A DNA stretch of 28,609 nucleotides from a virus: IMG/VR virus record IMGVR_UViG_3300045141_000328, positions 1 through 28,609 of that record. One strand, written 5' to 3'. Positions 2,864 through 28,609 of the stretch are shown one piece after another (positions within the stretch are counted from its first letter, which is position 1; each line of letters begins with the position of its first letter). The translations under genes were made by a program, and so were the position numbers. The notes under the pieces are model-generated. The model was not told the origin of the DNA, did not search any database, and saw only the letters and a list, made by a program, of their open reading frames with translations.

Positions 2864-5800
2864 ATGCCTGGCACCATCCTCCTCGACGACCTGCGCTCGA
2901 GCATCGGCGACGAGCTGCGCTCCCACGCTCAGGGATTGCTGCAACTCGGCCAGGGCGCCGTCCAGAGCATCAACGATGCGATCCCCCCGCCGCCGCCGGT
3001 ACCCCAGGGTCCCGACCCCAACCAGATCCTGCAGGAGCTCCAGCAGCACGCCCAGCAGGCCGCGGCCGCTGCACAACCTGCCGTCCAGGTGCTCGGTGGG
3101 GCGCAACAGTCCGCGGGTGACGTGCTGCAGCAGCTTCAACAGCACGCGTCCAACCTGACCAGCGATGTCGGCCAGCAGTTACAGCAACACGTCAACAGTC
3201 TCACCCAGGGCGCGCAGGACGCCGTCCAGAGTCTGGCCACCCCACCACCGGCGCCACCACCACCAGCGACCACCACGCCATCGCTGGGCGGTCCGCCACC
3301 GTCAGACACGGGACCGGCGACCGTTGGTCAGGGCCAGTCGGCGTTCATCACCAGCCTGCAGGGCATGGCGCAGCGCGCAGCGGCGGCCACGGGCATCGAT
3401 CCCAACGCCATGCTGGCGATTGCCGCCAACGAGACCGGCTGGGGCCAGTCGTCCAACGCCCAGCAGCAGAACAACCTGTTCAGCCTGCAGGGTGACGGCA
3501 GCAACGGCTCGAGGTGGGCCAGCTACAAGAGCCCGCAGGAGTCGTTTGACGCGTTCATCAACCTGGTGCAGACCGCGCCGCGGTACGCCCAGGCGTGGGC
3601 CGATCGAGGCAACGCCAGTAAGTTCGTCGACGACCTGCGGAACGCGGGCTACGTGGTCGACGAGCCGGGCTACCCCGCGCAGGGATGGGTCGACCAGGTG
3701 AAGTCGATCTACGACCATCTGCCCCCGGCCGCACAGGGAGCGGTCAACGCGGTGCAGGGCGCTGGCCAGCAGGTGCTCGGCGCCGCTCGAGGTGCGCTCG
3801 ACACGGCGTCGACGGCGATGAACCAGTCCCAGTTCGGTGACCCGCAGTTGACGGCCGACGAGGCGTACGCGGCCTGCGGCCCCGCGGCCGCCGTCAGGTT
3901 CGCCGAACGTTTTGGACGTAACCCCACGCTCAGAGAAGCCACCGATCTGGCCAAGCAAGTGGGCTGGACCAGTGGCGGCGGTATGGCCGGCATCACCAGC
4001 GAGCAGCAACTGCTCAAGAACATGGGCGTCGATACGCACATTGTTGCGCCCGATTGGGATGCGATCGCCAAAGAAGCGCAGACGGGGAACCCGGTCACCA
4101 TCAGTACGCAAAATCACTACTTTTTCGCCGACGGCTACAACCCGCAGACGGGCGCGTTCCACGTGGGACGGTCGGGTCTGGACCTGAAAAACGGCAGCGA
4201 GTGGATGACGCCGACCCAGATGGAAAATCTGATGGGCCGCGCGCAGGGCGCCCTGTTCGCCGACAACCCTGCGGTACCTGCCTCGAGCACATCTCCCACG
4301 TCACTGGGCGGCACCGGTGGTGCATCCAACGCCCCGATCACCATTGGTGGGCCAGCCCCCGTGAAGGCGCCGCTGTACGTCAAGGGTGCCATGCAGGACG
4401 CCAACGGCAACGTGGTCGCCGACCAGGGGCCAACGCCCATCCAGTCTGCCGCGGACGTGCTCGGCGGCGCCGCCGGCGCAGTCGGCGAAGCGGTCGGTGG
4501 CGCGGCATCGGCACTGGGCTCGGCCGCGCAGGGTGCGCTCGCTCAGGCCACCGCGCCCGTCCAGCTCCAGCCCGGCCAGGTGTCGGCGCGCGACCAGGTC
4601 AACCAGGTGGCCAGTGACGTGCAGCAAGCCGCGCAGGGCGTGCTGGGCGCGGCACAGGACGTCAACCGGATGACGCCTGGCACAACGGCAGTCAATGCGG
4701 TAGCGCCCGTTTTGGGGGCCGCTGCAAGCGATCTGGGCACCACGGCTCGAGGTGCGGTAGACGCCACCGTTCCCGTGCTCGGTGGTGCGGCCAGTGATCT
4801 CGGCACCCAGGCGGAGGCGTTCGCGCGGTCGCCGGTGGGTCAGCGTCTCTTACAGGCCGCCGCGGAGAATGCCCAGGAGGGGCCGTCGTTGATCCCGGCG
4901 GGCACGATGAGCCTGTACCGCGACGTCATGCAGGTCAAGAACGATTGGCTCGAGCAGAACAACCCGCTCAACAACCTGCCCGGCGCACGGCCAGAACCAG
5001 GCCACGAGGGCGACATCACGCCCGGCGGATTGATCGCGGGTCTGACCACGGGCATCGCGCAGCAGTTCACCGACCCGTTGATGCTGGCGTTGCTGGGGCC
5101 GACCAGTGGTGTGGCTGAAGCGGGCACGGGCGCTCTCAGTGGCGCGGTGAGCCGCATCGTCGGGCCGCAACTGGCGGAACGGCTGTCGCCCGGCGCGGTC
5201 AGCGTGCTCGGCACGATCGCCCAGAAGTTTTCGCAGGGCGCCATCGTGGGCGGGCTGCAGAACGCGATGTTCGAAGCCGAGAAGAAGGAGAGCACGCCCG
5301 AGTCGGTGGGCCAGGCGCTGGTGGTCGGCGCAGGGTTGGGCGGGGTGATCGACGTGGGCGCGGCCGGCGTTGCACAGGTCGTACGCCGTCTGGGCCAGGT
5401 GCTGCTCGACAACGCCCCACAGATCACCGAGGCCTTGCGCTCCTCGAGGCTACCCGCCCAGACCACCGTCAACAACGCGCTGGGCGGCGTGCCGGAATTG
5501 GCCGCGCGGGCTCGAGGCGAAGCGACCCCGGTCGCGCCGACGGCGCCCGCAACTGAAGCTGCACCGCTGCCACCGTCGACGGCGGTCGGTCGCCAGCGAT
5601 TACCGAACTATCCCGCGGACACGCCTGAGGGTCGGTTCGAGGCCATCGCGCGACCGTTGCGCGAGGCATCGCCGGATGGCTTGCTGCATCTCGATCTGAA
5701 CACGCTGCCGCAGGACGTGCTGCCGCTTGACAGGAACGTCGCCAAGAGCTCGGCGAACGGGTTGGTCAAACTGGCGCCGGGCGGCATGCCGAATACAGAC

Positions 5801-8800
5801 GACCTGCGCGCGCTGTACGAGGCCAACCCTAACAAGCGCGACTTCTACTACGACCAGGCAGACCAGGGAATCCCGACCGTCGGCGCGCACAACCTCGAGG
5901 AGTGGTTCGCGCTGAACGCCATCAGCAGCATGCAGACCAACGTCACCGGCCAGGTGTCGGAGGCGGCGAAGGTCTTCGGCATGGTGCGGCAGATCGCGCA
6001 GGAAGGTCGTCAGGCAGGACTGTCGCCGCCTGAGATCAAGGCCAGCATCCTGAAGGCGGTCAACGACTACACGTACGGTGGTCCCGCGGGACCGAACAAG
6101 CGCATCGCCATGAACCGTGGCTATGCGACTGGTATTGCCGATACGGGTGGGCCGAAGACGCCGTCGTTCGCGGGCAACTACGGTTCTGCCGAAGCGCGTC
6201 TCTACGACCCGGCGATTACCAACGACATATGGAACTGGCGCACGATGAACATCGACACCAGCCAGACTCCAGCGGTGCGCGGTGGCAAGACGTACATGGA
6301 TTCGCCGCACGAGTCCGCCGCGGCCAACAACAAGAACCTGTACCGCGGTGTCGAGGCGGTCTTCAACGAGCTCGGTGCGGAGCAGGGGGTTGACGGGTTC
6401 GCGTTCCAGTCGTCGGTGTGGGACGGTATCCGCGCGATGGCTGAGGGTGCTCCCGAGGCGTACGCCAAGTGGAAGGCGGGCGACTTCCAGGGCGCCATCC
6501 GCGATGCCAAAGCCGCGGGCGTCTTCGACCGGCCGATCGGTAAAGTTGGTGCGCCCGAGCCGGGCGAGATCTCGCGGGCGATGCAGCAGCCGTCGGTAAA
6601 GGCGGCGTTGGCGCAGTACGCGCCGTATCTGCACGATCCCCTTCCGCCAGAGCTGGGGATACCGTCGGTGCAGCGTGCGTTCCTGGGTGACACCAGGAAA
6701 GCGTCGGGCACGCTCCGACCCGCGACGCACGAGTTCCGTAACGCGCAGCGCGGGCTGCAAGAGAGCAACGCTCCGATCGTGCGCGGCGTGCCCGGCGGTG
6801 TGCTCGATCGATTAGGGGTGGACGAACGCGGGGTGATGCCGTGGCTGGCAACCGCGCACCGCGTGGTCGAAGAGACGCCAGGGAACTACGTCGTGCATCT
6901 GCCGTCGGGCAACAGCGACACCGCACGGTACGTGGCGGCGACCATCGGCGACGCGCTGAAGGCGCCGGAGATGGCGATTCACTATCCCGACTATCGGGCG
7001 CCGGACGCCGCGGGACTGAGCCTGGTGGCTGACAGGGCGACGCTGGATCGTGTGCAGGCGGCGCTGGCCGCGGATGGTCACCCGACGGTCAGAGGCCCCA
7101 CTGGAGGGTCGCTGCAGATACCCCTGTATGACATGGAATCGGCGCCTCGTGTGGTAGAATCTCTCAAGAATGCGGGCGTCGATCCCGCGACGTTAGATAG
7201 GTACAACGGGACCAATGAGCGCATCCAGGCCGCAGACTATGCACGAACTCTTGGATCAACTGGGAGTCGGTTCGAACCGACTACCGTCGAGCGACGCAGT
7301 CTACTCGAGCGGGCCAAAGGTGGTCCTTCCGAAGCAGGAGCCGTCGAAGGCACCGGCTCTGCGGCCCCACCCGGAGGCGGCGCCGCCTCCCCCGCCAGGG
7401 GTGGGCTTCGAGGCTCCCGAGAGCTAACCCCGCCACCGCGGACGCTGTACCACGGCACGAGTGCCGACTATCCGTCGGTTGAGCCGGGGCAGCGGGCCTT
7501 CGAAGGCGAGAACTCGCTCGGTCCTGGTCACTATCTGGCAACTGACCCAGGCGTTGCCTCCGGGTATGCCGAACGGGCGCAGAACCCGGAAAGTATCGAG
7601 GGGTTCCAGGGTCAGGGTGCGAATGTTCGCAAGGTCAACGTGCCAGCGGACATGCGGCTGTTCAATATCACCCAGACTGACCGTGACCTGGCCGCGCCTG
7701 AAATCACGCGCATTGCCGACGTGCTCGAGCGGCAAGGTGGTGTCCGAGCGGGCGAAGCGGTCAATGAACTTCGCTATCTGGCCGGGATTGCCGATCCTTC
7801 TGCGAAGCTCGGTGGTGATGCCTCGCCGAACGCGGTGTTTGATGCGATGGCGTCGCGGGGGGTTGAGCCGCGAACGATCAGTTTTCTGTTGCGGAAACTG
7901 GGGTATGAAGGCATCGAGCACATCGACTCTCTGGATGGGGCGCACAACGTCCTGGTCTTTCCCGAGGCGACGAACCGTCTGCAGAACGCCATCAGTGGGC
8001 GGCAGGGCGGCCAGGCCCAGGTGCCGTTCGGCATCAACCTCGCGGGTGGTGTTGCTGGCGGTTACGCCGGTAACCTGGCAACACCCCAGGACGCGTCACC
8101 CGAAGAGCGCCTGAGAAACATCGGGCTCGGGGCAACCGCGGGGTTGCTCGGTACGCATCTGATCACCCGCGGTGGTGCCGGTCCCCTCTTGGAACGCGCC
8201 GTCGCGGGTGTCGGCCGCGAGGGTGAAGCCGGCTTCCGCGCACCAGAGACGCGCCCGACACTCGAGGAGCAACTCGCGCGGGCAGCAGACCGGGGTCCAC
8301 GCCCCGGCGAGAATCTGCTGCGGGCCACCACCGAAGAGCGGCCACCACCCAGCGAGGAGCCGACCCGCCAGACCGTGCGCGGTGTCGAACCAGGCACGCC
8401 GCGGAACATCGGCGAGGTCGTCACCAATCCGCATCTGCTGGATGCGGCTGGTCCTGGCGAGACGCCGATGACGATGGACGAGCGCCTCGCCCATCAGGAC
8501 ACCCTCGAGCAACGCTACCAGGCCAACCAGGACCGTCTGGCCGCCATCGACGAGCAGCTGCGTAATCCTACGCAGAAGCCTGAGCGGCCGCCGTGGGGTG
8601 CGGGCTACACCAACGACAACCTGGTCGAGATCGCCCAGCAGCACGGTCAGAGCGCGTACGACCCGTTGTGGTGGGAGAAGGCCGGGCTGGACACCGGGTC
8701 GGGCGAGGTACGTCTCGACGTCGGCCAGAGTGGTATCCGCGGCACCGGGACGCGCGAGCCCACGCCGACCGAGTTGCGGGCGGAACGCAACACGCTGGCG

Positions 8801-11800
8801 CTCGACCAGCGCCACATCGAGGCCGCGGGCGAGCAGCAGGCGAATGCGCCGGACGACGCACAGTTCGCCCGCCGCGGCCAGCGTGCTGCAGACCTGCCGT
8901 TCGCGGGTGGCGAAGAGAACGCGCCGCACGGTCCGTACGCGACCGAGCAGGCATCGTCCGGTCCAGGCTCGCTGGCCGAAGACATCGTCACCCAGAACGG
9001 CCGCAAGAGCTACGGCGACCCGCTGAGCGGCGACGGGCTGCGCGAAGCGCCCGGCGAGGTCATCGGCACCAGAGGCGGCGTGACCGGGCGTGGCATCAGC
9101 GACGCCGAAGCGGCCAACGTGCCGCCACCCAGCGAAGCCACCCTCAAGCGGATGCCGAACCTGGACGCCATGCTGAAGGGCGCCATGCCCGAGGTCAGGG
9201 CACAGATCCAGCGCGCGGCCGAGGACAACCCCGAGCTGTTCGACGCGTACACCCAGGGCCGGATCTCGCACGACTCGCTGGTGAACGACCTGGCCACCAA
9301 AGTGGGCATGACGCGCGACGAGTGGCTGAAGACGCCTGTCGGCAAGGGTTTCAATCCGCAGGAGATGGTGGCGCTGCAGGCCGCGGCTATCGATGCCCAG
9401 GCACGGTCCGAGAAGATGGCCAGGGACATCGTCGCCAGGGGCGGGGTGGATGCGCTGTCGGACGAGCAGGTCGCGTACGGGCTCAACGAGCTCTCCAAGA
9501 ACACCCAGTTGCTGACGGTGGCCAGGGGTGGGCGCAGTACGGCGGGCCGCACGCTGGAGTCGCTGAAGAATCGGCTGGACGCGACGATGGCGCGCGGCAT
9601 CAACGCTAGCAACGAGCGCATCGGCGCCCAGCGCATTGCCGACCAGGCCAAGCGGGCGACGGCTCGCGCAACGCAGCTTCTGGAAAAAACGCGCGAGATG
9701 GATGTCGAGCAGAAGACCGCGGTCGCCACGGCGCGGTCGAACGGGGCGCCGAAGAACATCCTCGATCAGATCGCGGCCGCGTACGACCAGCTCGATCGCT
9801 ACAACGCCATGACGCTGCACGAGAAGGCTGACGACTTCAACGCGCTGAAGGCTGCGCGCGATGCCGCGGCGGCGAAACGTCAGGCGGCGGTGCGGGAGCC
9901 GCCCCAGGAATTGCTGAGTGCCTTGCAGGCGGAGCTCGCCGCGGAGCGTAAGAACTTTGCCAACCGCAAGAACACGTGGGAAGACATGGCGTTCTGGGAT
10001 AGCAAGGCCAACGAGATCGCCGCTGAGAAACGCAACGCGTTCCGCGGGGGTCTGTACATCGAGCAGTACCGCAAGAGTGCCGACCTGGCCGCGAAGTCGG
10101 CCGAGGCTGATGCGAAACGCGCGTTCGACCTCGAGTCGAAGCGCCAGTCACTGCAGTCCCAACGCGCGAGCAGCGTGCTCGAGGCGGTGGGTGGCCAGAA
10201 GCCGTCCCGAGAATTGCTCGCCAGCTACGTCAAGGCGATCACGTCCGACGATCCGCTGGCCGCGGGCAAGTTCATCAAGGGCTTGCAGCAGCAGGGCTGG
10301 TGGGGCCGGTCGCAGATCGTGCGTATCGCGGGGCTACTCAGCTCCACGGTCACCCATATGGCCAACATGGTCGGCAACATCAGCCAGGTGCCGCTCGAGG
10401 TCGCCACGCACGGCATGGTGGTGGGCATTGACTGGGCACGCGCGGCGGCCACTGGTGGTGAACGCCAGGCGTACATGGCTGAGCTCGGTCCGATGCTGGA
10501 GGCGTACGGCCCAGGCTTTCTGTCCAGCATGCCGGACGCCCTCAAAATTCTGCAGACCGGCATCTCGCCGGACGACCTGGTGAACCTGAAGAACATGCGG
10601 CCAGGTCTGGCGTCCGGGTCGGAGAAGCTCGACGCGGCCGTGGAGATGCCGCTGCGATTGCTGCAAGCTGAAGACCAGGTGTTCAAGGGTGGCGCGTTCG
10701 CCATGCAGGCGAACCGTGTGGCGACCCGCTATGCGGTCCGCGAAGGGTTCCGCGGCGAGCAGATCAAGGGGCGCACGGCGAACATCGTCAAGAATTTCGA
10801 GGAGTACCCCGAGCTCTACAAAGAGGCGCACGACGCCATGCTGCGGATGGTCTTTCAGGAGCACCGCGACTGGATACCGTCGCCGCGTGGGGCCGCGCAG
10901 GGCGTCGTGTCGCAGCCGCTGCCGTTCATTCGGACCCCAGCCAACATCACGGCCCAGGGCGGGGGTCTGTCACCGTTTGGGCTGGCCGGCACGGTCGCCG
11001 CGGTGCGAGCCCGCGGCGCATTGCAGACGGCAGGCGGCGCAACGTCAGCGCAACTCGGGCGCGCGACTTTACTGGCAGAGCAGCGCCTCGCGCGTACGGC
11101 GCTGGGCACGGCCATTGTGGGCATGGGCGTCGGGATGGGGGCCGGCACGTTCAGTGGTGGCAAGAGCATGCTGACCGGCGCGTACGACCCCAACGAAGCC
11201 AGCACGTACCCGCAGGGGTGGCGCGAGTGGTCGGTGGTCACCCAGGACCCGGTCAGCGGGAACACGTACTACGTGCCGATGCAGAATTTTGGAGCTGCCG
11301 GTGCGCCGCTGGCGATGGCGGCCATCCTGACGGACGCGGGCAAGCGTGGGCACAGCCTGCTGGATAAGGACGAGGCGGCTCGAGCGGCGACCAGCATCGG
11401 CCAGTACGTGCTCGACAACACGTTCCTGCAGGGCCTTTCAGATACGGTCAACGTGTTGCACGACCCGAGTCGGTACGCCAATAAGTTCCTCGAGAGCCTG
11501 GTGAGCAGCTATGGGCCGTATTCGGCGATGGGCCGCCAGATTCAGCGGGCCTACGGGGTGGCCAGCCGCAACCCGCACGATGGCTTCGTGGGGCTGGTCG
11601 AAGCGATGGAGTCGAACTATCCAGGGCTGAGCGGCAACGTGCCCGAGTCGTTGACGGCGATCGGCGAGCCGCGGACGCAGGGCATCTCTGGCGCAGCGGC
11701 GTTCGCCTTGCCGGTCCGAGCCGACATCCTGCGCGACGAGCCCACGCTCAAGGCGTTGCGCGACAACGATGTGCGGATTCCGCCGGCGCCGAAAGCGGTC

Positions 11801-12106
11801 AACGTGGGCAATGGCTGGTCGGTCGATCTAACGCCAGAGGAGCAGGATCAGTTGCAGCGGTCGCGCGGCGAGATCATCCGCCAGCAGGTGGCCGCGGTGA
11901 TGGGGTCATCGCTCTATAAGGACGGCGACATCAGCGTACGGAACCAGTTGTTGTCGAAGGCGATCAGCAACGCGTCGCAGAACAGCGACGTGCTGTTTAC
12001 GCGGACGTTGTCGCGGGCTGATTTGCAGTCCACCACCGCGGGCGGACGCGCGGTCCGTCGTACCGTGCCGACGCCATACACCGTGGCAGGAGAGGACGCA
12101 GCCTGA
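2864..12106 (+). CDS. Giant multidomain polyvalent virion protein (glucosaminidase, C39-like peptidase, ADP-ribosyltransferase-like)
   Basis: A 3,080-residue protein, probably packaged in the virion and ejected with the DNA. Visible parts in order: an Ala/Gln-rich helical N-terminus; residues about 158-287, a FlgJ-like glucosaminidase or lysozyme fold (AANETGWGQS, then NNLFSLQG); residues about 328-470, a C39-like cysteine peptidase with Cys338 in YAACGPAAA and His418 in QNHYFFADGY; residues about 975-1215, an uncharacterised module with EEWFALNAISSMQ and SPHESAAANNKNLY; residues about 1525-1705, an ADP-ribosyltransferase-like fold with LYHGTS (His1530), GPGHYLATD (Tyr1557) and a closing HNVLVFPEATN; then charged coiled coils to about 2480; and residues about 2485-2800 with SSTVTHMANMVGN and PFIRTPANI plus a glycine-rich hydrophobic segment near 2743-2766. 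Such mixtures fit the polyvalent proteins described for phages and conjugative elements. The stop overlaps the next ATG. Enzyme activities are inferred from motifs. Confidence 0.85.
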   Translation: MPGTILLDDLRSSIGDELRSHAQGLLQLGQGAVQSINDAIPPPPPVPQGPDPNQILQELQQHAQQAAAAAQPAVQVLGGAQQSAGDVLQQLQQHASNLTSDVGQQLQQHVNSLTQGAQDAVQSLATPPPAPPPPATTTPSLGGPPPSDTGPATVGQGQSAFITSLQGMAQRAAAATGIDPNAMLAIAANETGWGQSSNAQQQNNLFSLQGDGSNGSRWASYKSPQESFDAFINLVQTAPRYAQAWADRGNASKFVDDLRNAGYVVDEPGYPAQGWVDQVKSIYDHLPPAAQGAVNAVQGAGQQVLGAARGALDTASTAMNQSQFGDPQLTADEAYAACGPAAAVRFAERFGRNPTLREATDLAKQVGWTSGGGMAGITSEQQLLKNMGVDTHIVAPDWDAIAKEAQTGNPVTISTQNHYFFADGYNPQTGAFHVGRSGLDLKNGSEWMTPTQMENLMGRAQGALFADNPAVPASSTSPTSLGGTGGASNAPITIGGPAPVKAPLYVKGAMQDANGNVVADQGPTPIQSAADVLGGAAGAVGEAVGGAASALGSAAQGALAQATAPVQLQPGQVSARDQVNQVASDVQQAAQGVLGAAQDVNRMTPGTTAVNAVAPVLGAAASDLGTTARGAVDATVPVLGGAASDLGTQAEAFARSPVGQRLLQAAAENAQEGPSLIPAGTMSLYRDVMQVKNDWLEQNNPLNNLPGARPEPGHEGDITPGGLIAGLTTGIAQQFTDPLMLALLGPTSGVAEAGTGALSGAVSRIVGPQLAERLSPGAVSVLGTIAQKFSQGAIVGGLQNAMFEAEKKESTPESVGQALVVGAGLGGVIDVGAAGVAQVVRRLGQVLLDNAPQITEALRSSRLPAQTTVNNALGGVPELAARARGEATPVAPTAPATEAAPLPPSTAVGRQRLPNYPADTPEGRFEAIARPLREASPDGLLHLDLNTLPQDVLPLDRNVAKSSANGLVKLAPGGMPNTDDLRALYEANPNKRDFYYDQADQGIPTVGAHNLEEWFALNAISSMQTNVTGQVSEAAKVFGMVRQIAQEGRQAGLSPPEIKASILKAVNDYTYGGPAGPNKRIAMNRGYATGIADTGGPKTPSFAGNYGSAEARLYDPAITNDIWNWRTMNIDTSQTPAVRGGKTYMDSPHESAAANNKNLYRGVEAVFNELGAEQGVDGFAFQSSVWDGIRAMAEGAPEAYAKWKAGDFQGAIRDAKAAGVFDRPIGKVGAPEPGEISRAMQQPSVKAALAQYAPYLHDPLPPELGIPSVQRAFLGDTRKASGTLRPATHEFRNAQRGLQESNAPIVRGVPGGVLDRLGVDERGVMPWLATAHRVVEETPGNYVVHLPSGNSDTARYVAATIGDALKAPEMAIHYPDYRAPDAAGLSLVADRATLDRVQAALAADGHPTVRGPTGGSLQIPLYDMESAPRVVESLKNAGVDPATLDRYNGTNERIQAADYARTLGSTGSRFEPTTVERRSLLERAKGGPSEAGAVEGTGSAAPPGGGAASPARGGLRGSRELTPPPRTLYHGTSADYPSVEPGQRAFEGENSLGPGHYLATDPGVASGYAERAQNPESIEGFQGQGANVRKVNVPADMRLFNITQTDRDLAAPEITRIADVLERQGGVRAGEAVNELRYLAGIADPSAKLGGDASPNAVFDAMASRGVEPRTISFLLRKLGYEGIEHIDSLDGAHNVLVFPEATNRLQNAISGRQGGQAQVPFGINLAGGVAGGYAGNLATPQDASPEERLRNIGLGATAGLLGTHLITRGGAGPLLERAVAGVGREGEAGFRAPETRPTLEEQLARAADRGPRPGENLLRATTEERPPPSEEPTRQTVRGVEPGTPRNIGEVVTNPHLLDAAGPGETPMTMDERLAHQDTLEQRYQANQDRLAAIDEQLRNPTQKPERPPWGAGYTNDNLVEIAQQHGQSAYDPLWWEKAGLDTGSGEVRLDVGQSGIRGTGTREPTPTELRAERNTLALDQRHIEAAGEQQANAPDDAQFARRGQRAADLPFAGGEENAPHGPYATEQASSGPGSLAEDIVTQNGRKSYGDPLSGDGLREAPGEVIGTRGGVTGRGISDAEAANVPPPSEATLKRMPNLDAMLKGAMPEVRAQIQRAAEDNPELFDAYTQGRISHDSLVNDLATKVGMTRDEWLKTPVGKGFNPQEMVALQAAAIDAQARSEKMARDIVARGGVDALSDEQVAYGLNELSKNTQLLTVARGGRSTAGRTLESLKNRLDATMARGINASNERIGAQRIADQAKRATARATQLLEKTREMDVEQKTAVATARSNGAPKNILDQIAAAYDQLDRYNAMTLHEKADDFNALKAARDAAAAKRQAAVREPPQELLSALQAELAAERKNFANRKNTWEDMAFWDSKANEIAAEKRNAFRGGLYIEQYRKSADLAAKSAEADAKRAFDLESKRQSLQSQRASSVLEAVGGQKPSRELLASYVKAITSDDPLAAGKFIKGLQQQGWWGRSQIVRIAGLLSSTVTHMANMVGNISQVPLEVATHGMVVGIDWARAAATGGERQAYMAELGPMLEAYGPGFLSSMPDALKILQTGISPDDLVNLKNMRPGLASGSEKLDAAVEMPLRLLQAEDQVFKGGAFAMQANRVATRYAVREGFRGEQIKGRTANIVKNFEEYPELYKEAHDAMLRMVFQEHRDWIPSPRGAAQGVVSQPLPFIRTPANITAQGGGLSPFGLAGTVAAVRARGALQTAGGATSAQLGRATLLAEQRLARTALGTAIVGMGVGMGAGTFSGGKSMLTGAYDPNEASTYPQGWREWSVVTQDPVSGNTYYVPMQNFGAAGAPLAMAAILTDAGKRGHSLLDKDEAARAATSIGQYVLDNTFLQGLSDTVNVLHDPSRYANKFLESLVSSYGPYSAMGRQIQRAYGVASRNPHDGFVGLVEAMESNYPGLSGNVPESLTAIGEPRTQGISGAAAFALPVRADILRDEPTLKALRDNDVRIPPAPKAVNVGNGWSVDLTPEEQDQLQRSRGEIIRQQVAAVMGSSLYKDGDISVRNQLLSKAISNASQNSDVLFTRTLSRADLQSTTAGGRAVRRTVPTPYTVAGEDAA

Positions 12107-15295: not shown

Positions 15296-16182
15296 TGCCA
15301 GGCGATTGGGACAAGAACGTCCACCCCGACCTGGTCGATGACGAGGAGAGCTCGTCGTCCGAGCCGTCGGCGCCCCGCCCTCGCGGTCGCGGGCGTGCCA
15401 ACTCTGACGCGGCCCTCCCCGCGACGGCGGGCGAGGCAGTATCAGAAGAGCCTGTCACTGAGTCAGGTTCCCAGGACACTGCCGAGCCCGACCCGGCGAC
15501 ACCCGACCTCGCCTGGTTCGACCAGGTCAGGGACGCGAAAGACCCCGTCGAAGCCCTGCGGCTGATTACCAAGAACCTGCCGCGCGACCAGCTCGAAAAA
15601 GACGAGGTCATGTCCGGCGTGATCGGCGCGCGTGCCGAACGCCGGTTCAACGAGATCAAGGCTCAGCAGGAGCGCGCGGCGCAGGAGCGAGCCAAACTGG
15701 AAGCGGCCGCCAACAACGACCTGTACACCCTGGGCGAGATGACTCAGCGCGAGTTGCAAGGGCAGCTCGCGTCGCAGCAAGCCGCTCAGGCCGCGGGACC
15801 GTTTATGGACGGCATCGTCCAGTTTCAAAAAACCCTGCCCGAGGTGATCCAGAAGAAGATCGCCGGGAAAACCTTCGGGGCAGGCAAGGGCTACGCCGAG
15901 GGCGTGGCAGAATACGTGGCAGCCATCGTCGACGAGGCAGTGGAGCTCGGCGTCAGTAAGCGCGAGTCCGCACTGAGGAAATCGGTGATGAGCGAGATAA
16001 ACGGTGACGAGCCTGTCCCTGAGCGCGACTCTGGTACCCCCGGTCGCGTCCGAGAAGTGACAGACGAAATGATCGCCGCCATGACGCTTCGAGAATATGA
16101 GGCGCTGTTCGACGAGAACGGTAAGCCAAAGCCAGGGGTACGCCATCGGTCAACCCGAGGGATCCCCGTTCGTCAACATTAG
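15295..16182 (+). CDS. Scaffolding-like capsid assembly protein
   Basis: A 295-residue acidic, largely helical protein directly upstream of the major capsid gene, the usual scaffold position. Residues 15-75 are Ser/Glu/Pro-rich and disordered. Residues about 100-150 form a coiled coil (ERRFNEIKAQQERAAQERAK). The C-terminal part is mixed charge and ends with a basic segment (RHRSTRGIPVRQH), and scaffolds often contact the coat protein through a basic C-terminus. Start ATG 15295 overlaps the previous stop. The assignment rests on composition and position, since scaffold sequences diverge widely. Confidence 0.75.
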   Translation: MPGDWDKNVHPDLVDDEESSSSEPSAPRPRGRGRANSDAALPATAGEAVSEEPVTESGSQDTAEPDPATPDLAWFDQVRDAKDPVEALRLITKNLPRDQLEKDEVMSGVIGARAERRFNEIKAQQERAAQERAKLEAAANNDLYTLGEMTQRELQGQLASQQAAQAAGPFMDGIVQFQKTLPEVIQKKIAGKTFGAGKGYAEGVAEYVAAIVDEAVELGVSKRESALRKSVMSEINGDEPVPERDSGTPGRVREVTDEMIAAMTLREYEALFDENGKPKPGVRHRSTRGIPVRQH

Positions 16183-16203
16183 GGGGTCATTCAAGACAAC
16201 CAC

Positions 16204-16218
16204 ATGGCAACCGGTGCT
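16204..16218 (+). CDS. Major capsid protein, exon 1 (first five codons, MATGA)
   Basis: ATG GCA ACC GGT GCT, followed at once by an in-frame TAG. The last six bases, GGTGCT, pair with GGCACC at 16231-16236 to give a group I P1 helix with a U-G pair at the splice site, so the exon is predicted to end at 16218. Joined to 16985 the reading becomes MATGATEFVDKTISDG, a normal capsid N-terminus. A G-rich stretch at about 16183-16188 is the only nearby ribosome binding candidate and is rather distant. Confidence 0.75.
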
Positions 16219-16984
16219 TAGTACGGTATAGGCACCTAACGCAGCTCAAATGCGGGGAAGCCCTAAGAGCCTTCGAGCCTGATTAGGGAAGAGTGCGAAG
16301 GATGGAGCAATGGGTAATCCGCAGGCGAAAGTTTCAGATATCGAGTACGGCTGGTTAGCCGGGTTCTTTGACGGTGAGGGTTCTGTGGTACTGACGATTC
16401 GTCCCAGCGCAGGCAAGAACGGTGGACCCAAGGTCCAGCCGATGGCGCTGCTCGCTGGGACAGATCAGGCCGCGCTGGATGCAATCACGAGCATCCTCGA
16501 GCGTGTCCAGGTCGGGCATCACGTCGCATGGGCCATTCCCAGGGGCACTGCTCGTAATGGCAATGCCTACAAACGTGCCTGGGCTGTTCGTCTCGTGGGA
16601 CTCAAACGAACCCAACGTTTCGTCGAATGGATCTTGCCCGCGCTGCAGACGAAGCGCGAGCGGGCCGAGTTGGTGCTGCAGTACATCGCAGCGCGTTTGG
16701 CTCATAGCGACTTCCGCACGCCGATCCAGCCCGAAGAGTGGGCGATGGCAATGCAGATGAAATTGCTCAACAGCAAGACCCAGCCGTTTACTCGAGAAGT
16801 CACCTTGAACACCGAACCAGCCGGGCTCACTTCAGAAGAGGCTCGGGTGCGTGGCATGAAGGGCCACGCCGTTCGGTGGGGTTACGCTGATACTAGCCTC
16901 AACGACCCCACGCTGCGCTTGCCCATCTGAGTGGGCAATGAAGGTAGAGTCTGCTCTTACATAAAAGTGTAAGCTAACAACAGG
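16219..16984 (+). ncRNA. Group I self-splicing intron in the major capsid gene
   Basis: 766 bases. Helices paired by hand: P1 GGTGCT 16213-16218 with GGCACC 16231-16236 (terminal U-G wobble at the 5' splice site); P3 CGCAGC 16240-16245 with GCTGCG 16912-16917; P4 TGCGG 16251-16255 with CCGCA 16319-16323; P5 CCCTAA 16261-16266 with TTAGGG 16283-16288; P7 CA(AC)GAC 16900-16906 with GTCTG 16949-16953, leaving a two-base bulge; P8 TTGCCCA 16919-16925 with TGGGCAA 16932-16938; P9 CTTACA 16956-16961 with TGTAAG 16968-16973. Their order matches the group I core. The P and Q strands AAATGCGGGGAA and AATCCGCAGGC resemble the conserved elements. The terminal G is 16984; the first exon 2 bases ACC could pair with GGT 16225-16227 as P10. 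Exon frames join without a shift. Splicing itself is inferred. Confidence 0.85.
16310..16930 (+). CDS. LAGLIDADG homing endonuclease, intron-encoded
   Basis: A 206-residue protein with one LAGLIDADG motif near residues 13-24 (YGWLAGFFDGEGSV), so it would act as a homodimer. The motif's acidic residue (D in FFDGEG) is present. The segment FVEWILPALQTKRERAELVL fits the alpha-helical part that follows in this family. It should cut intronless capsid alleles near the exon junction and spread the intron. GGATGGAG lies a few bases before the ATG. The coding region starts just before the P4 3' strand and its stop TGA lies in the P8 loop, so it overlaps P4, P7, P3 and P8 of the ribozyme. The C-terminal 25 residues encoded by core sequence may be poorly constrained at protein level. 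Confidence 0.9.
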   Translation: MGNPQAKVSDIEYGWLAGFFDGEGSVVLTIRPSAGKNGGPKVQPMALLAGTDQAALDAITSILERVQVGHHVAWAIPRGTARNGNAYKRAWAVRLVGLKRTQRFVEWILPALQTKRERAELVLQYIAARLAHSDFRTPIQPEEWAMAMQMKLLNSKTQPFTREVTLNTEPAGLTSEEARVRGMKGHAVRWGYADTSLNDPTLRLPI

Positions 16985-17824
16985 ACCGAATTCGTAGATA
17001 AAACCATTTCAGATGGCGTTTTCTCCCCCGACATCTGGAGTAAGCAGGTACTGCGGGCGACAGAGTCGAACTTGCTCTTCGCAAAGTCAGTAAACCGAGG
17101 ATTCGAGAACGACGCGTCGGTCGGAAAGACCGTCAAAGTAGCGTCAATCGGGAATCTGGCGGCGAGGGCAAAGACAGAAAATACGGCTATTGTCTACGAG
17201 ACAGTTGCAGAAACTGCCACGACAATAACCTTAAACATTTGGTCATACGCCGCCCTTGGCATCGAGGATATCGTCAAGGTGCAGAGCATCATCGATGTCC
17301 AATCCGAATACCAGCAGAAGCTGGGTTACGCCCTGGCTAAGGACGTCGACACCAACCTGGCCGTGGACGTCGCCGGGTTTACGCAGACCGTTGGCACCCT
17401 GGGCACGGCACTGTCGGACGCCAACGTCCTGGCCGCGGTGCAGTTGCTGGATAACGCCGACGCGCCCCAGACCGAACGGTTCTTCTTGATGAGCCCGGCT
17501 GAGAAGGTGGCCAAGCTGGCACTCGACCGCTGGTCGAACGCCCTGTACATCGGCAACACCAACCTGCCGTCCAAGGACGGTCAGCTCGGCGACATGTACG
17601 GACTCAATCTGGGCATCACCACCAACCTGGTGAAGCCGGCTGGCGGCCAGGCCAACAATTTCATCGGCCATCGGGAAGCCATCGCGCTGGTGATGCAGCG
17701 CACGCCCAAGTCGCACATCTTCTACGACATAGACGTTTTCAGCTGGAAATTGGCCGTCGAAGAGATTTACGGCCACCAGATGATGCGTCCGACGTTCGGC
17801 GTCTGGGCCAAGGGAGCCGCGTAG
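16985..17824 (+). CDS. Major capsid protein, exon 2
   Basis: Exon 2 encodes 279 residues; with exon 1 the product is 284. It reads TEFVDKTISDGVFSPDIWSK at the junction, then NLLFAKSVNRGFE, NDASVGKTVKV, a central SIIDVQSEYQQKLGYALAKDVDTNLA helix (here split: SIIDVQSEYQQKLG and YALAKDVDTNLA) and ends GVWAKGAA. This matches the pattern of HK97-fold coat proteins of short-tailed and related phages (FxPxIWS start, long spine-helix region). An in-frame TAA at 16970-16972, inside the intron, closes the frame upstream, so no independent start covers the N-terminal arm except the TTG at 17072, which would lose about 29 residues. Scaffold upstream and head-completion genes downstream support the call. 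Confidence 0.88.
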   Translation, partial: TEFVDKTISDGVFSPDIWSKQVLRATESNLLFAKSVNRGFENDASVGKTVKVASIGNLAARAKTENTAIVYETVAETATTITLNIWSYAALGIEDIVKVQSIIDVQSEYQQKLGYALAKDVDTNLAVDVAGFTQTVGTLGTALSDANVLAAVQLLDNADAPQTERFFLMSPAEKVAKLALDRWSNALYIGNTNLPSKDGQLGDMYGLNLGITTNLVKPAGGQANNFIGHREAIALVMQRTPKSHIFYDIDVFSWKLAVEEIYGHQMMRPTFGVWAKGAA

Positions 17825-20232: not shown

Positions 20233-21335
20233 TGACGACCCCGCCGCTGCCATCCCCGCCACTCCAACTGCCGTCGTGGGTGACACCGCCGCTGGTGGCG
20301 CTGCATACCGCGACGCTGCAGTTGATTCGTTCGAGTCTTTCGCAGGAGGCCGGCCCGTTTATTGGTCCCGAGGCGTACGACGTCCGTGCGATGGGTGGCT
20401 CGGACGAAACCAAACTGGTCTGCACGATCTACCCGATCCTGTCGGGCATTCCGCAGCAGGACCAATTGATCGACCGACCGCTGTACCGCCCGAACGCGAC
20501 GCAGGTCACGGACCGCAATCGGTACGTGATGAGCTACGACCCGACGACGGGCACCATTACCCCGGATGGTGTCTGGGCCATAGCGCCGCTGGCCGATCCT
20601 GGCCTGGGCACGCGGTACCAGGACCTCGAGGCGTTCATCTACGCCGATATGGAGCGGATGATCTACTCCGACCTGGAGAACACCGGGCTGGCCGGTTTTG
20701 GCGAGCGGTTCGAAGTGCTGGGTCCGTTCGACGCACCAACCTGCCACCGCTTGATCAACGAGGGGCTCAGGCACTGCTGGGTGGTGGTCGAGGTGGCGTG
20801 CGTGCCAACCATCCTGACGACCAGGCACGACCTGAGTGTGGTCGCGCCGTGGCTGATCGATACGGGCAACGTGCTGCAGGTGGGCCTGCTGGCAGCCGGT
20901 GAGGACCGCAACCTGCAGGACCCGTTCGAGCGGCGCATCATGGGCCAGGTCGAACGCGACGGCGGGCACTTCTATTTGAATACGCAGCCGCACACGTTCA
21001 ACGACGGCGACCTGATTTATCTCCGCGTGCTGAAACGGGCGTACGACCACTGCCGGCCGGCGGGGGGCACGTTCGGCGATCAGCAGGGTCTGAGTCTGGA
21101 AACAGACGAGGCGCCGGTCATGCGCGGGTGGGCCGCGGCCGCCGCGCTGGTGGCTGGCTGGCGACAGTTCGGACATCTGCTCGAGCCGGCGGCCAATCAG
21201 CGATTGATCCGGGACCAGGCCAGCGCGGTGGCCGCCTTCAACGACCTGGTCAGGGAACACCTGGTGGCGGATATGCCGCAGAAGAAGCTGTACCGCCAGC
21301 GCACGTTCGGGCCAGGCGTCAGGACCGCTGGATGA
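20232..21335 (+). CDS. Structural protein, possible tail or neck component
   Basis: 367 residues, coupled to the preceding gene by TGATG. Mixed alpha/beta composition without low complexity. Notable segments are VVVEVACVPTILTTRHDLSV, a MRGWAAAAALVAGWRQFG helix and a C-terminal KKLYRQRTFGPGVRT. No enzyme motif is visible. Position between fibre-repeat and beta-propeller-like genes suggests a tail, adaptor or neck protein. Its TGA (21333-21335) overlaps an ATG at 21332 that opens only MSFFDAL before a TAG, see the HNH gene. Confidence 0.6.
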   Translation: MTTPPLPSPPLQLPSWVTPPLVALHTATLQLIRSSLSQEAGPFIGPEAYDVRAMGGSDETKLVCTIYPILSGIPQQDQLIDRPLYRPNATQVTDRNRYVMSYDPTTGTITPDGVWAIAPLADPGLGTRYQDLEAFIYADMERMIYSDLENTGLAGFGERFEVLGPFDAPTCHRLINEGLRHCWVVVEVACVPTILTTRHDLSVVAPWLIDTGNVLQVGLLAAGEDRNLQDPFERRIMGQVERDGGHFYLNTQPHTFNDGDLIYLRVLKRAYDHCRPAGGTFGDQQGLSLETDEAPVMRGWAAAAALVAGWRQFGHLLEPAANQRLIRDQASAVAAFNDLVREHLVADMPQKKLYRQRTFGPGVRTAG

Positions 21336-22083
21336 GCTTTTTTGATGCGTTGTAGCAACGTGTGCAGAGCCCCAGTGCTCCGTGGCGTCGTTCCGTCGTA
21401 TGGCATTGCTGGCAGTCGTCGAAGTAGATTGCCCACCGCCCGTTTCTGGACGGACGGCGACCTGTTGGTTGCTGCACGTTGTAACGAATACGTGCGAGAC
21501 GACGGCCCTCGCACCTCGCGCAACGACCGCGGGCTTTATATGGTTTCTCGGTTAGACCGCACTCGATACACGCGTCAAATCGGGATGACCACTGCTTGCG
21601 GGGTCGGCGATCTCGTGGCCCGAACGTGCGAATGTCTTCGCGTTGATAACAGCGTGTACACAAGCCGTGCGAGGCGTGGAGCCTTGCTGTCGTCCCACAC
21701 ACTCGACACGAGTCGTGCAATAGAGACCAGCGTGAACCGAGCACCTTCTGTTCGTTGTGGATGTCCTGATGCTGAGTGTTGCTTACCAGACGGAGGTTTT
21801 CTAAACGGTTGTCCGTCTTGTCGCCGTTTACGTGGTGAATGTGAAGGCCTTCGGGAATTGCCCCGAACGCAGCCTGCCAGACAACACGATGCTCAAATGC
21901 CCGAGTCCCATCGGGGAGCCATAGGCGTACATAGCCTCGCGTGTCGACGTGCCGACCGCCGCGCCAGTGGTGACTGTCTGCCCCGCCGCGCGGCTTCTTG
22001 CACTCAGAGCACAGTCGCCCCGTCCTTGATGCTGTCGGTTGCAGCCCACACCGGCCACAGAGAAATTGCTCCAGCTCCACCAC
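21319..22083 (-). CDS. HNH homing endonuclease with zinc-ribbon repeats
   Basis: 254 residues from a GTG start. Residues about 60-115 form an HNH domain: FEHRVVWQAAFGAIPEG, then LHIHHVNGDKTDNRLENL and NTQHQDIH, with the His-Asn-His residues present. Four CxxC pairs of zinc-ribbon type surround it: CGRCG with CSEC near the N-terminus, CRVCG with CTRC, CIECG with CARC, and CQQCH with CTRC. Such repeats would bind DNA or its target site. It lies antisense to the tail genes; its 3' end overlaps the end of the preceding structural gene by 17 bases. Base composition looks less GC-rich than its neighbours, fitting recent transfer. Confidence 0.88.
   Translation of the reverse strand: MVELEQFLCGRCGLQPTASRTGRLCSECKKPRGGADSHHWRGGRHVDTRGYVRLWLPDGTRAFEHRVVWQAAFGAIPEGLHIHHVNGDKTDNRLENLRLVSNTQHQDIHNEQKVLGSRWSLLHDSCRVCGTTARLHASHGLCTRCYQREDIRTFGPRDRRPRKQWSSRFDACIECGLTEKPYKARGRCARCEGRRLARIRYNVQQPTGRRPSRNGRWAIYFDDCQQCHTTERRHGALGLCTRCYNASKKLIQRS
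21332..21355 (+). pseudogene. Orphan start of an interrupted gene (MSFFDAL)
   Basis: An ATG overlapping the stop of the 367-residue gene opens MSFFDAL and then stops at TAG 21353-21355. The ATGA coupling is the style used throughout this gene string. The remainder of the frame is replaced by the antisense HNH gene. It may be the original start of the tail protein now read from 22115. This is an inference; the reading is too short to prove. Confidence 0.35.
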
Positions 22084-27728: not shown

Positions 27729-28609
27729 CTAGTGGCTATGCGCCGCACGGCGGGCACACTGGGTGCAGTGAAACGCACGGACGTTGCCGGTGCCCTTGAA
27801 GGGGATCGGATGGGCGTGCACGCCGTTGCCCAGCCACTGCTCGGCGAGTGACGCGCGTCCGGCGCGATCGGCGATGATCGATTGGGCGAAGTGGACGTAG
27901 TCGGCCGTTACCTCGTGGCTGAGGTGGCCGACGATGCGTCGCAAGCCGATCTCATCACCTGGGAACGCCACCAGATACCACGTACAGAACGTGTGGCGCA
28001 GCCGATGGGCGATGGGGTTCAGAACCCCCGCGGCCTCGCCGAGGCGTTGGATGATGCGGCTGGCGCCCTCCGATGACAGTGGCCGGCCTTCGTGCGACAG
28101 GAACAGGCGACCGGCGTCCTTACCGTGAGCGGGGCGAATGGTGAGATACGCGCGCAACGCGCGCACGGTGCAGCCGCCGTCACGTTTTGAGCCGTCGCCC
28201 ATGGGCACCAGGCGTTCGCGGCGGCCCTTGCCGTCTCGGCCGACGAGCGCCTGGCGCTGATCGAGGCGCAGGCGATCGATCGTCAGCGTGGCGGCCTCGC
28301 CGATGCGCATGCCAGTGTCGAGCAGCAACAGGAAGAGGGCCTCGTCACGAGCCGCGGTACGCGAGGAGCGGGCGACGCCCCACATGGCGTTGACCTCGAT
28401 CTGGGTGTAGGGCTCGCGCAGGATTTTGCCGACCCGCGGCACGCTCAGCTTGCGCAGCGTGTCGTCCGGGAGAATGCCCTCGCGCTCGAGGAAGCGGGCG
28501 AAGGTTTTGGCGCGTGCGGCCAGGGTGCGGACGCTGACGGCGCCATGGCGGGAGCTGGCGGGGTTGACGCGATCGCGGTACCAGGCGAGGACGGCGCGGA
28601 CGTTGTTGG
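27729..28609 (-). CDS. int: Tyrosine recombinase (phage integrase), N-terminus beyond window
   Basis: About 293 visible residues, open to the window edge; a GTG at 28442 would start after the core-binding domain, so the gene is read as partial. The upstream part (VRAVLAWYRDRVN, VRTLAARAKTFARFLEREG) is a SAM-like core-binding domain. The catalytic set is present: Arg in DTGMRIGEAATL, Lys near DGKGRRERLVPM, His-x-x-Arg in HRLRHTFCTW, His in VGHLSHEV and Tyr in TADYVHF. After the tyrosine there is an unusual tail of about 45 residues that ends FHCTQCARRAAHSH, with a CxxC pair and two late His residues. It would integrate or excise the phage genome. Confidence 0.85.
   Translation of the reverse strand, partial: NNVRAVLAWYRDRVNPASSRHGAVSVRTLAARAKTFARFLEREGILPDDTLRKLSVPRVGKILREPYTQIEVNAMWGVARSSRTAARDEALFLLLLDTGMRIGEAATLTIDRLRLDQRQALVGRDGKGRRERLVPMGDGSKRDGGCTVRALRAYLTIRPAHGKDAGRLFLSHEGRPLSSEGASRIIQRLGEAAGVLNPIAHRLRHTFCTWYLVAFPGDEIGLRRIVGHLSHEVTADYVHFAQSIIADRAGRASLAEQWLGNGVHAHPIPFKGTGNVRAFHCTQCARRAAHSH

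Follow-up and report, generated by a model that had tools for sequence, protein, structure and literature searches.

We find that the major capsid gene of this phage is very probably split between codons 5 and 6 by a mobile group I intron that carries its own LAGLIDADG homing endonuclease gene; splicing of the RNA, cleavage by the endonuclease, and homing of the intron are predictions made from the sequence. The source is a virus record of 28,609 nt, and positions are given on this full-length stretch, referred to as the window (Table 1). The capsid gene begins with an ATG at 16204 and runs for five codons into an in-frame TAG at 16219–16221, as the initial annotation had pointed out. When 16218 is joined to 16985, the reading frame continues as MATGA-TEFVDKTI..., an N-terminus that intron-free relatives have in one piece, which bears out the earlier proposal that this joint restores the start of the capsid protein. 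Exon 2 alone is recognizable as a capsid family member, with matches to PF19821 (Phage_capsid_2; 33.3 bits against a cut-off of 25, E 4e-8) and to phrog_267 in PHROG (major head protein, E 3.5e-30). Even the closest phage matches to the capsid protein stay below 30% identity, and two capsid scans of an 84,980-genome collection returned no capsid relative or lysogen. An integrase gene of the PF00589 family (27729–28607, minus strand, E 6e-27) lies at the window edge, so the phage may be temperate. On the plus strand, a 3,080-codon reading frame (2864–12106) has peptidoglycan hydrolase matches near its start that fall below curated cut-offs.

Table 1. Features of the capsid locus, with positions on the window
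Feature	Position	Strand	Remarks
Leader	16181..16203	+	Shine-Dalgarno AGGGGGU 16181-16187, 16 nt from ATG
Possible leader stem	GUC 16186-16188 / GAC 16195-16197	+	Leaves 6 nt to ATG; predicted
Exon 1, major capsid gene	16204..16218	+	ATGGCAACCGGTGCT = MATGA; same five codons or variants run into exon 2 in intron-free relatives
Probable group I intron (codons 5/6)	16219..16984	+	766 nt; U precedes, G terminal
P1	16213-16218 GGUGCU / 16231-16236 GGCACC	+	U·G pair exactly at 5' splice site
P10 (possible)	16224-16227 CGGU with exon 2 ACCG 16985-16988	+	
P3	16240-16245 CGCAGC / 16912-16917 GCUGCG	+	Both sides changed in codon-20 introns
P4	16251-16256 / 16318-16323	+	In second sub-threshold Rfam piece
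P5 extension	16270-16275 / 16296-16301	+	Within P4 span 16251..16323
LAGLIDADG endonuclease gene	16310..16930	+	206 aa, inside intron; model most like I-CreI, I-MsoI chains
P6	16324-16326 GGC / 16896-16898 GCC	+	Most of endonuclease reading frame between strands
P7	16904-16908 GACCC / 16947-16951 GAGUC	+	One C·A; GACCG/CAGUC in L088
P8	16919-16925 / 16932-16938	+	Inside P7 span
P9 hairpin	16956..16973	+	CUUACAU AAAA GUGUAAG
Exon 2, major capsid gene	16985..17824	+	279 codons + stop

Empty Sites among Relatives

The strongest evidence for an intron is comparative, in the form of empty sites among relatives. In a capsid search of viral contigs, the best 80 of 128 relatives were used; directly 5' of the exon 2 match, 72 of the 80 have MATGA or one of its variants without a break, and eight carry an insert. 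Another 47 contigs, that of the diverged relative L088 among them, came from further capsid searches, one of which had L088 as its query. The capsid queries thus yielded 127 contigs besides the window, and these counts include near-identical contigs: 104 are uninterrupted, nine have an insert exactly at the codon-5 joint, 12 are interrupted at another place in the gene (four after codon 20 and eight in codon 88), and two (L206 and L234) are cut before the intron places. Searches with the endonuclease contributed eight more contigs: L089, whose codon-5 intron runs off the end of the contig; L241 and L242, with inserts at codon 20; and L245, L249, L252, L253, and L254, with inserts at codon 88. 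The codon-5 intron occurs in three clearly different lineages: the window type, L016/L034, and L088.

The Ribozyme Core

Eight helices were found in the window, and 46 of 47 pairs are standard in a count that uses A 16323 twice, once for P4 and once for P6. The initial annotation had placed P3, P4, P5, P7, P8, and P9 in the right order; P3, P4, the P5 extension, P6, P7, P8, and P9 do pair in that order, P6 being an addition. The P1 helix with a U·G pair at the joint stands as proposed, and a P10 pairing, read from the sequences, is possible in the window and L034 and not in L088. Exon 1 ends in the U of the P1 U·G pair and the intron ends in G, as is required of group I splice sites; a T is the last exon 1 nucleotide in 8/8 codon-5 alleles and in 16/109 of the other alleles compared. 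The sole nonstandard pair is a C·A at the fourth pair of P7, present in all seven complete codon-5 introns. P3-P4-P6-P7-P8 in order, with compensating changes and this one constant C·A in P7, make up a group I core.

The compensating changes are found at two depths. Among the three codon-5 lineages, P7, P8, and P9 change on both sides: the fifth pair of P7, C-G in the window type, is flipped to G-C in L088, P8 is UUGCC/GGCAA or CUGCC/GGCAG, and P9 is CUUACAU/GUGUAAG or CUCACGC/GCGUGAG. P1, P3, P4, and P6 are invariant at this depth and so uninformative by themselves. When codon-5 introns are set against those at codon 20, P1, P3, P4, the P5 extension, P6, P7, P8, and P9 are all re-paired with different letters. 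P3, for instance, is CGCAGC/GCUGCG at codon 5 and CCGACC/GGUCGG or CCGGGC/GCCCGG at codon 20, and P4 is UGCGGG/UCCGCA versus UGCUGG/UCAGCA. P1 tracks its exon, with GGUGCU/GGCACC at codon 5 and AGCCCU/GGGGCU at codon 20.

A covariance search with the Rfam group I model had been proposed as a check, with the absence of a match to be held against the intron, and taken to the letter this result goes against it: RF00028 has no match in the window at its gathering score (50 bits). Two pieces appear below that threshold, one covering P8, the 3' strand of P7, and P9 (14.0 bits, E 0.88) and one covering P4/P5 (12.7 bits, E 2.2). At the gathering score, the model matched none of 20 related loci either (19 with introns and L018 without). 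A scan with lax thresholds (E up to 1) of four intron-bearing loci gave full-length matches to codon-88 introns in L251 (32.6 bits, E 3e-5) and L249 (27.6 bits, E 9e-4), both below the 50-bit cut-off, and no match to the codon-20 intron of L242 or to L088's codon-5 intron (L100). In our view, one main cause of the weak score of the codon-5 intron is the 569 nt that separate the strands of P6. The gathering score is a curated cut-off and not a defining structural feature of group I introns.

We rejected the idea that the same ribozyme sits in other genes, as two exact core patterns run against viral contigs returned capsid contigs of the same family, seven loci judged by eye to be chance, and L102. 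At about 3154–4120, L102 has what looks like a group I intron of a different, unrelated kind, which contains a reading frame.

The Intron-Encoded Endonuclease

The endonuclease gene starts just 5' of the 3' strand of P4 and stops in the P8 loop, so that it also encodes P6, the 5' strand of P7, the 3' strand of P3, and the 5' strand of P8; the last residues of the protein are encoded by the 3' core of the ribozyme. A structure model (mean pLDDT 70.3, pTM 0.65) has variants of I-CreI and chains of I-MsoI as its best Foldseek matches (E 5e-9), and the top five have TM-scores by target length of 0.67–0.69 with rmsd of 5–10 Å; residues 156–171 and 181–206 are modeled without confidence. Across the endonucleases of the three intron sites in the capsid gene, 15 columns are invariant in 21 sequences, including W-x-AGF-x-DGEG. 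The invariant motif and the model together point to an I-CreI-type LAGLIDADG protein, with the family fold and the helix that bears the catalytic acid. Sequence libraries give fainter signals, with Pfam LAGLIDADG models below cut-off (14.5 versus 22.5 bits and 13.6 versus 23.1 bits), weak I-CreI-type matches in a phmmer search of the PDB, the PHROG label HNH endonuclease, and no NCBIfam match.

The endonucleases of the three sites are, by sequence comparison, kin. Identity is about 30–33% between codon 5 and codon 20 (E down to 1e-22), 27% between codon 5 and codon 88 (L224, E 8e-11), and 31% between codon 20 and codon 88 (L224, E 1e-13), the codon-88 comparisons resting on L224 and L225. In known phages, the codon-5 endonuclease has one weak match, in Sphingobium phage Lacusarx, and tblastn searches of 50,697 phage records with the endonucleases of all three sites gave no match in a mycobacteriophage, one of the searches being judged by its count of organisms.

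Several other endonuclease-like genes came to light. The codon-20 endonuclease has weak matches inside portal-annotated genes of Gordonia phages such as Minos (H44–H48), perhaps an intein or an intron. The records of L071 and L235 have weak LAGLIDADG matches about 500 nt 3' of the capsid gene on the opposite strand, possibly free-standing endonucleases. In the window, an HNH endonuclease gene (21319–22083, minus strand, Pfam HNH_3 E 1.8e-18) lies on the strand opposite to its neighbors, and homologues of it occur in 2 of 37 related records.

Mobility and the Three Intron Sites

The exon flank of the codon-5 intron carries a co-conversion tract, which is indirect support for the predicted cleavage of the intron-free site. 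Over the first 93 nt of exon 2, the window is 99–100% identical to the intron-bearing L007, L010, L011, L012, L014, and L015, 80–83% identical to eight close intron-free alleles (L002–L006, L008, L009, and L013), and 80–82% identical to L016 and L034 of a diverged intron lineage. The first exon 2 mismatch to the window falls at nt 132 in L007, 192 in L010, 132 in L011, and 42 in L014, and at nt 3 in all five intron-free contigs tested. Upstream, a comparison that covers intron-bearing alleles only, identity to L011, L014, and L015 is 0.92–1.00 for about 900 nt and 0.74–0.91 beyond that, and the gapless alignment of L012 to the window is lost 700 nt upstream of the joint.

Divergence at synonymous sites gives a more varied picture. 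The endonuclease dS is far below that of capsid exon 2 for L011–L014 (0.05 versus 0.42) and for the window and L011 (0.16 versus 0.55), and the direction is mixed for pairs with L088 (0.87/1.05, 0.96/0.80, 0.98/1.16, and 1.04/0.68). Third-position identity is higher in the endonuclease than in the capsid gene in 6/10 codon-5 pairs, 7/10 codon-20 pairs, and 14/55 codon-88 pairs, so that only some of the pairs give clear evidence of recent transfer. At codon 20, the endonucleases of L204, L216, L241, and L242 share 93–97% protein identity and their capsids 71–87% over codons 95 on. The minimum number of label changes on a capsid gene tree (135 genes, codons 95 on) is six for the codon-5 label, five for the codon-20 label, and 11 for the codon-88 label. 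Taken against the other intron labels alone, the codon-5 label needs four changes, where shuffled labels average 8.4 and none of 500 shuffles was as low; the label is clustered, then, and does not form one clade. This clustering is a point against the mobile-intron explanation; near-copies would produce it.

The introns at the other two sites are also group I introns with LAGLIDADG genes, 655–671 nt long after codon 20 (L201, L202, L204, L216, L241, and L242) and 767–777 nt long inside codon 88 (L218–L225, L245, L249, and L252–L254). Two introns in one capsid gene were seen in none of the 135 capsid-matching contigs, some of which are cut, and few would be expected given the intron frequencies observed. 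The expectation that the DNA at codon 5 is highly conserved was not borne out: in 104 intron-free alleles, the 22 nt around the codon 5/6 joint have a mean pairwise identity of 0.708, at the 12th percentile of the gene (mean 0.759), whereas codon 20 reaches 0.812 (86th percentile) and codon 88 reaches 0.782 (64th). The low conservation lends some support to the earlier remark that codon 5 is an unusual homing site.

The predicted pathway would run as follows. The intron RNA would fold around P3–P9, a guanosine would attack after the U of codon 5 at the U·G pair of P1, and the exons would join after the terminal G to give a normal 284-residue capsid protein. The in-frame UAG directly 3' of the joint would keep ribosomes out of the core, and the endonuclease would be translated from unspliced RNA or from the freed intron. 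It would then cut intron-free capsid genes of coinfecting phages, and repair would copy in the intron together with flanking exon. The gating of capsid synthesis by splicing, put forward in the initial annotation, is likewise a prediction, one that follows from the reading frame.

The Displaced Shine-Dalgarno Sequence

The capsid gene leader differs between alleles with and without the codon-5 intron. The Shine-Dalgarno sequence lies 14–16 nt from the start in 8/8 codon-5 alleles with a visible leader and 2–11 nt from it in 117/117 alleles without that intron (100 uninterrupted, 6 codon-20, and 11 codon-88), a count that picked farther motifs in some alleles when made without a distance limit. 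At a distance of 2–11 nt, the strongest pairing to the 16S 3' end is −4.2 kcal/mol or better in 117/117 and −0.7 to −1.6 in 8/8 codon-5 alleles. Alleles with an unlocated start or a leader shorter than 32 nt are excluded from these numbers, among them three codon-5, two codon-88, and four uninterrupted ones.

The displaced sequence may gate translation or may merely hitchhike. Hitchhiking by co-conversion is the simpler reading, and we think it rather probable: the displaced Shine-Dalgarno sequence would have no function, the donor's leader being carried along each time the intron moves. The close identity for hundreds of nucleotides upstream of the joint among window-type alleles fits this reading, as does the finding that the eight codon-5 alleles have just three distinct leaders. 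It accounts less readily for the 26 nt AAGACAACCACATGGCAACCGGTGCT, which are identical in the window and L034 despite an endonuclease dS of 0.65, or for the stem of 3–4 bp that is predicted in all three leader types and in each leaves 6 nt to the ATG. Shuffled leaders form a comparable stem in 17%, 8%, and 10% of cases for the three types.

We also consider, as a tentative and rather unlikely reading, that the ribosome-binding site co-evolved with the intron. An initiating ribosome covers about 15 nt past the start codon. Exon 1 has much the same length, so normal initiation would hide the 5' splice site, and the Shine-Dalgarno sequence would on this account have moved to 14–16 nt, there to be bridged or masked by the small stem. 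Capsid synthesis would then require that splicing come before translation, and related homing introns would be contending for three sites in the capsid gene family. Bridging and masking by the predicted stem are both possible, as the same leader fold can also pair the Shine-Dalgarno sequence with a CC in the leader. Folding of the spliced leader gave no clear release of the Shine-Dalgarno sequence after splicing.

Alternative Readings of the Insert

A decayed intron that has lost splicing, with a capsid protein that starts inside exon 2, is very improbable. The C·A in P7 and the weak Rfam score would suit it, and in the list of start codons for the exon 2 frame a TTG at 17072 comes first; a start there, however, would cost 34 residues, among them a segment that hardly varies across 13 aligned relatives. 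The gene for the endonuclease is undamaged and, to judge from the comparison of the window with L088 (dN 0.12, dS 0.87), under purifying selection, the helices are kept by paired changes over a dS near 1, and alleles of this kind occur again in each of three diverged intron lineages, all of which argue against decay. That an unrelated fragment was joined into the capsid gene during assembly can practically be dismissed: the contigs are all derived from metagenomes and no isolate was found, but the same insertion point is seen in nine other capsid contigs with different IMG sample numbers and in L089, in three diverged versions. LAGLIDADG endonucleases are found in inteins too, but an intein, or another element excised in frame at the protein level, is scarcely conceivable here: the capsid frame stops at the first codon of the insert, exon 1 and the endonuclease are read in different frames, and the insert has a group I core in which bases change in pairs. 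The identity and boundaries of the intron and the restored N-terminus, as first annotated, are backed by intron-free alleles, compensating base changes, and the endonuclease gene.

Comparison with Known Introns

A capsid-gene intron as such is not new. Mycobacteriophage LittleE (Cluster J) is reported to have a probable group I intron of 819 bp with a LAGLIDADG-like gene in its major capsid gene, with splicing proven by RT-PCR and N-terminal sequencing (PMC3706429). By that account the two introns are alike in lying in a phage major capsid gene, in having about the same length and a LAGLIDADG-type gene, and in having intron-free relatives; the LittleE endonuclease gene is on the other strand, whereas the one here shares the strand of the capsid gene and overlaps the ribozyme core. 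The LittleE intron is placed at nucleotide 496 of the gene (PMC11855218), compared with an exon 1 of 15 nt here. The paper on the LittleE splicing also names Tuc2009 as a capsid intron case (PMC3706429).

In the window, the first exon is unusually short. The first exon of the T4 td gene is longer than these 15 nt. The td intron with I-TevI is described as having its endonuclease gene in the P6 loop, from which it extends into P7, as here, but the enzyme is of the GIY-YIG type and the host gene encodes thymidylate synthase, in place of LAGLIDADG and capsid (PMC3073962). The same source describes overlap of endonuclease genes with intron cores, which the window endonuclease fits, and a stop codon just 3' of the 5' joint in most group I introns (PMC3073962). 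The ICP1 tape measure gene resembles the capsid family in that one virion gene has several introns with different endonuclease genes; there, three introns with HNH genes are reported to occur together in one gene (PMC10448857), whereas no two introns were seen in any of the 135 contigs, some of them cut. Leaders of T4 genes 38 and 25 share the overlong Shine-Dalgarno spacing, and RNA structure is reported to restore a working distance there; the available portion of that source mentions no intron, and the codon-5 leader stem is a prediction only (PMC3014915). Among the literature matches listed, which cover few subscription journals and include sources available in part, we found neither a phage capsid gene split by an intron after its fifth codon nor one in which introns occupy three sites.

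Efficient splicing of bacterial group I introns is reported to depend on translation of the upstream exon, and ribosomes that move past the 5' joint can keep the intron from folding (PMC3073962). A 15-nt first exon in a gene that must be highly expressed puts both claims to a natural test. With three related introns at three sites and many intron-free alleles, the family also makes intron spread, site jumping, and co-conversion measurable in wild phages.
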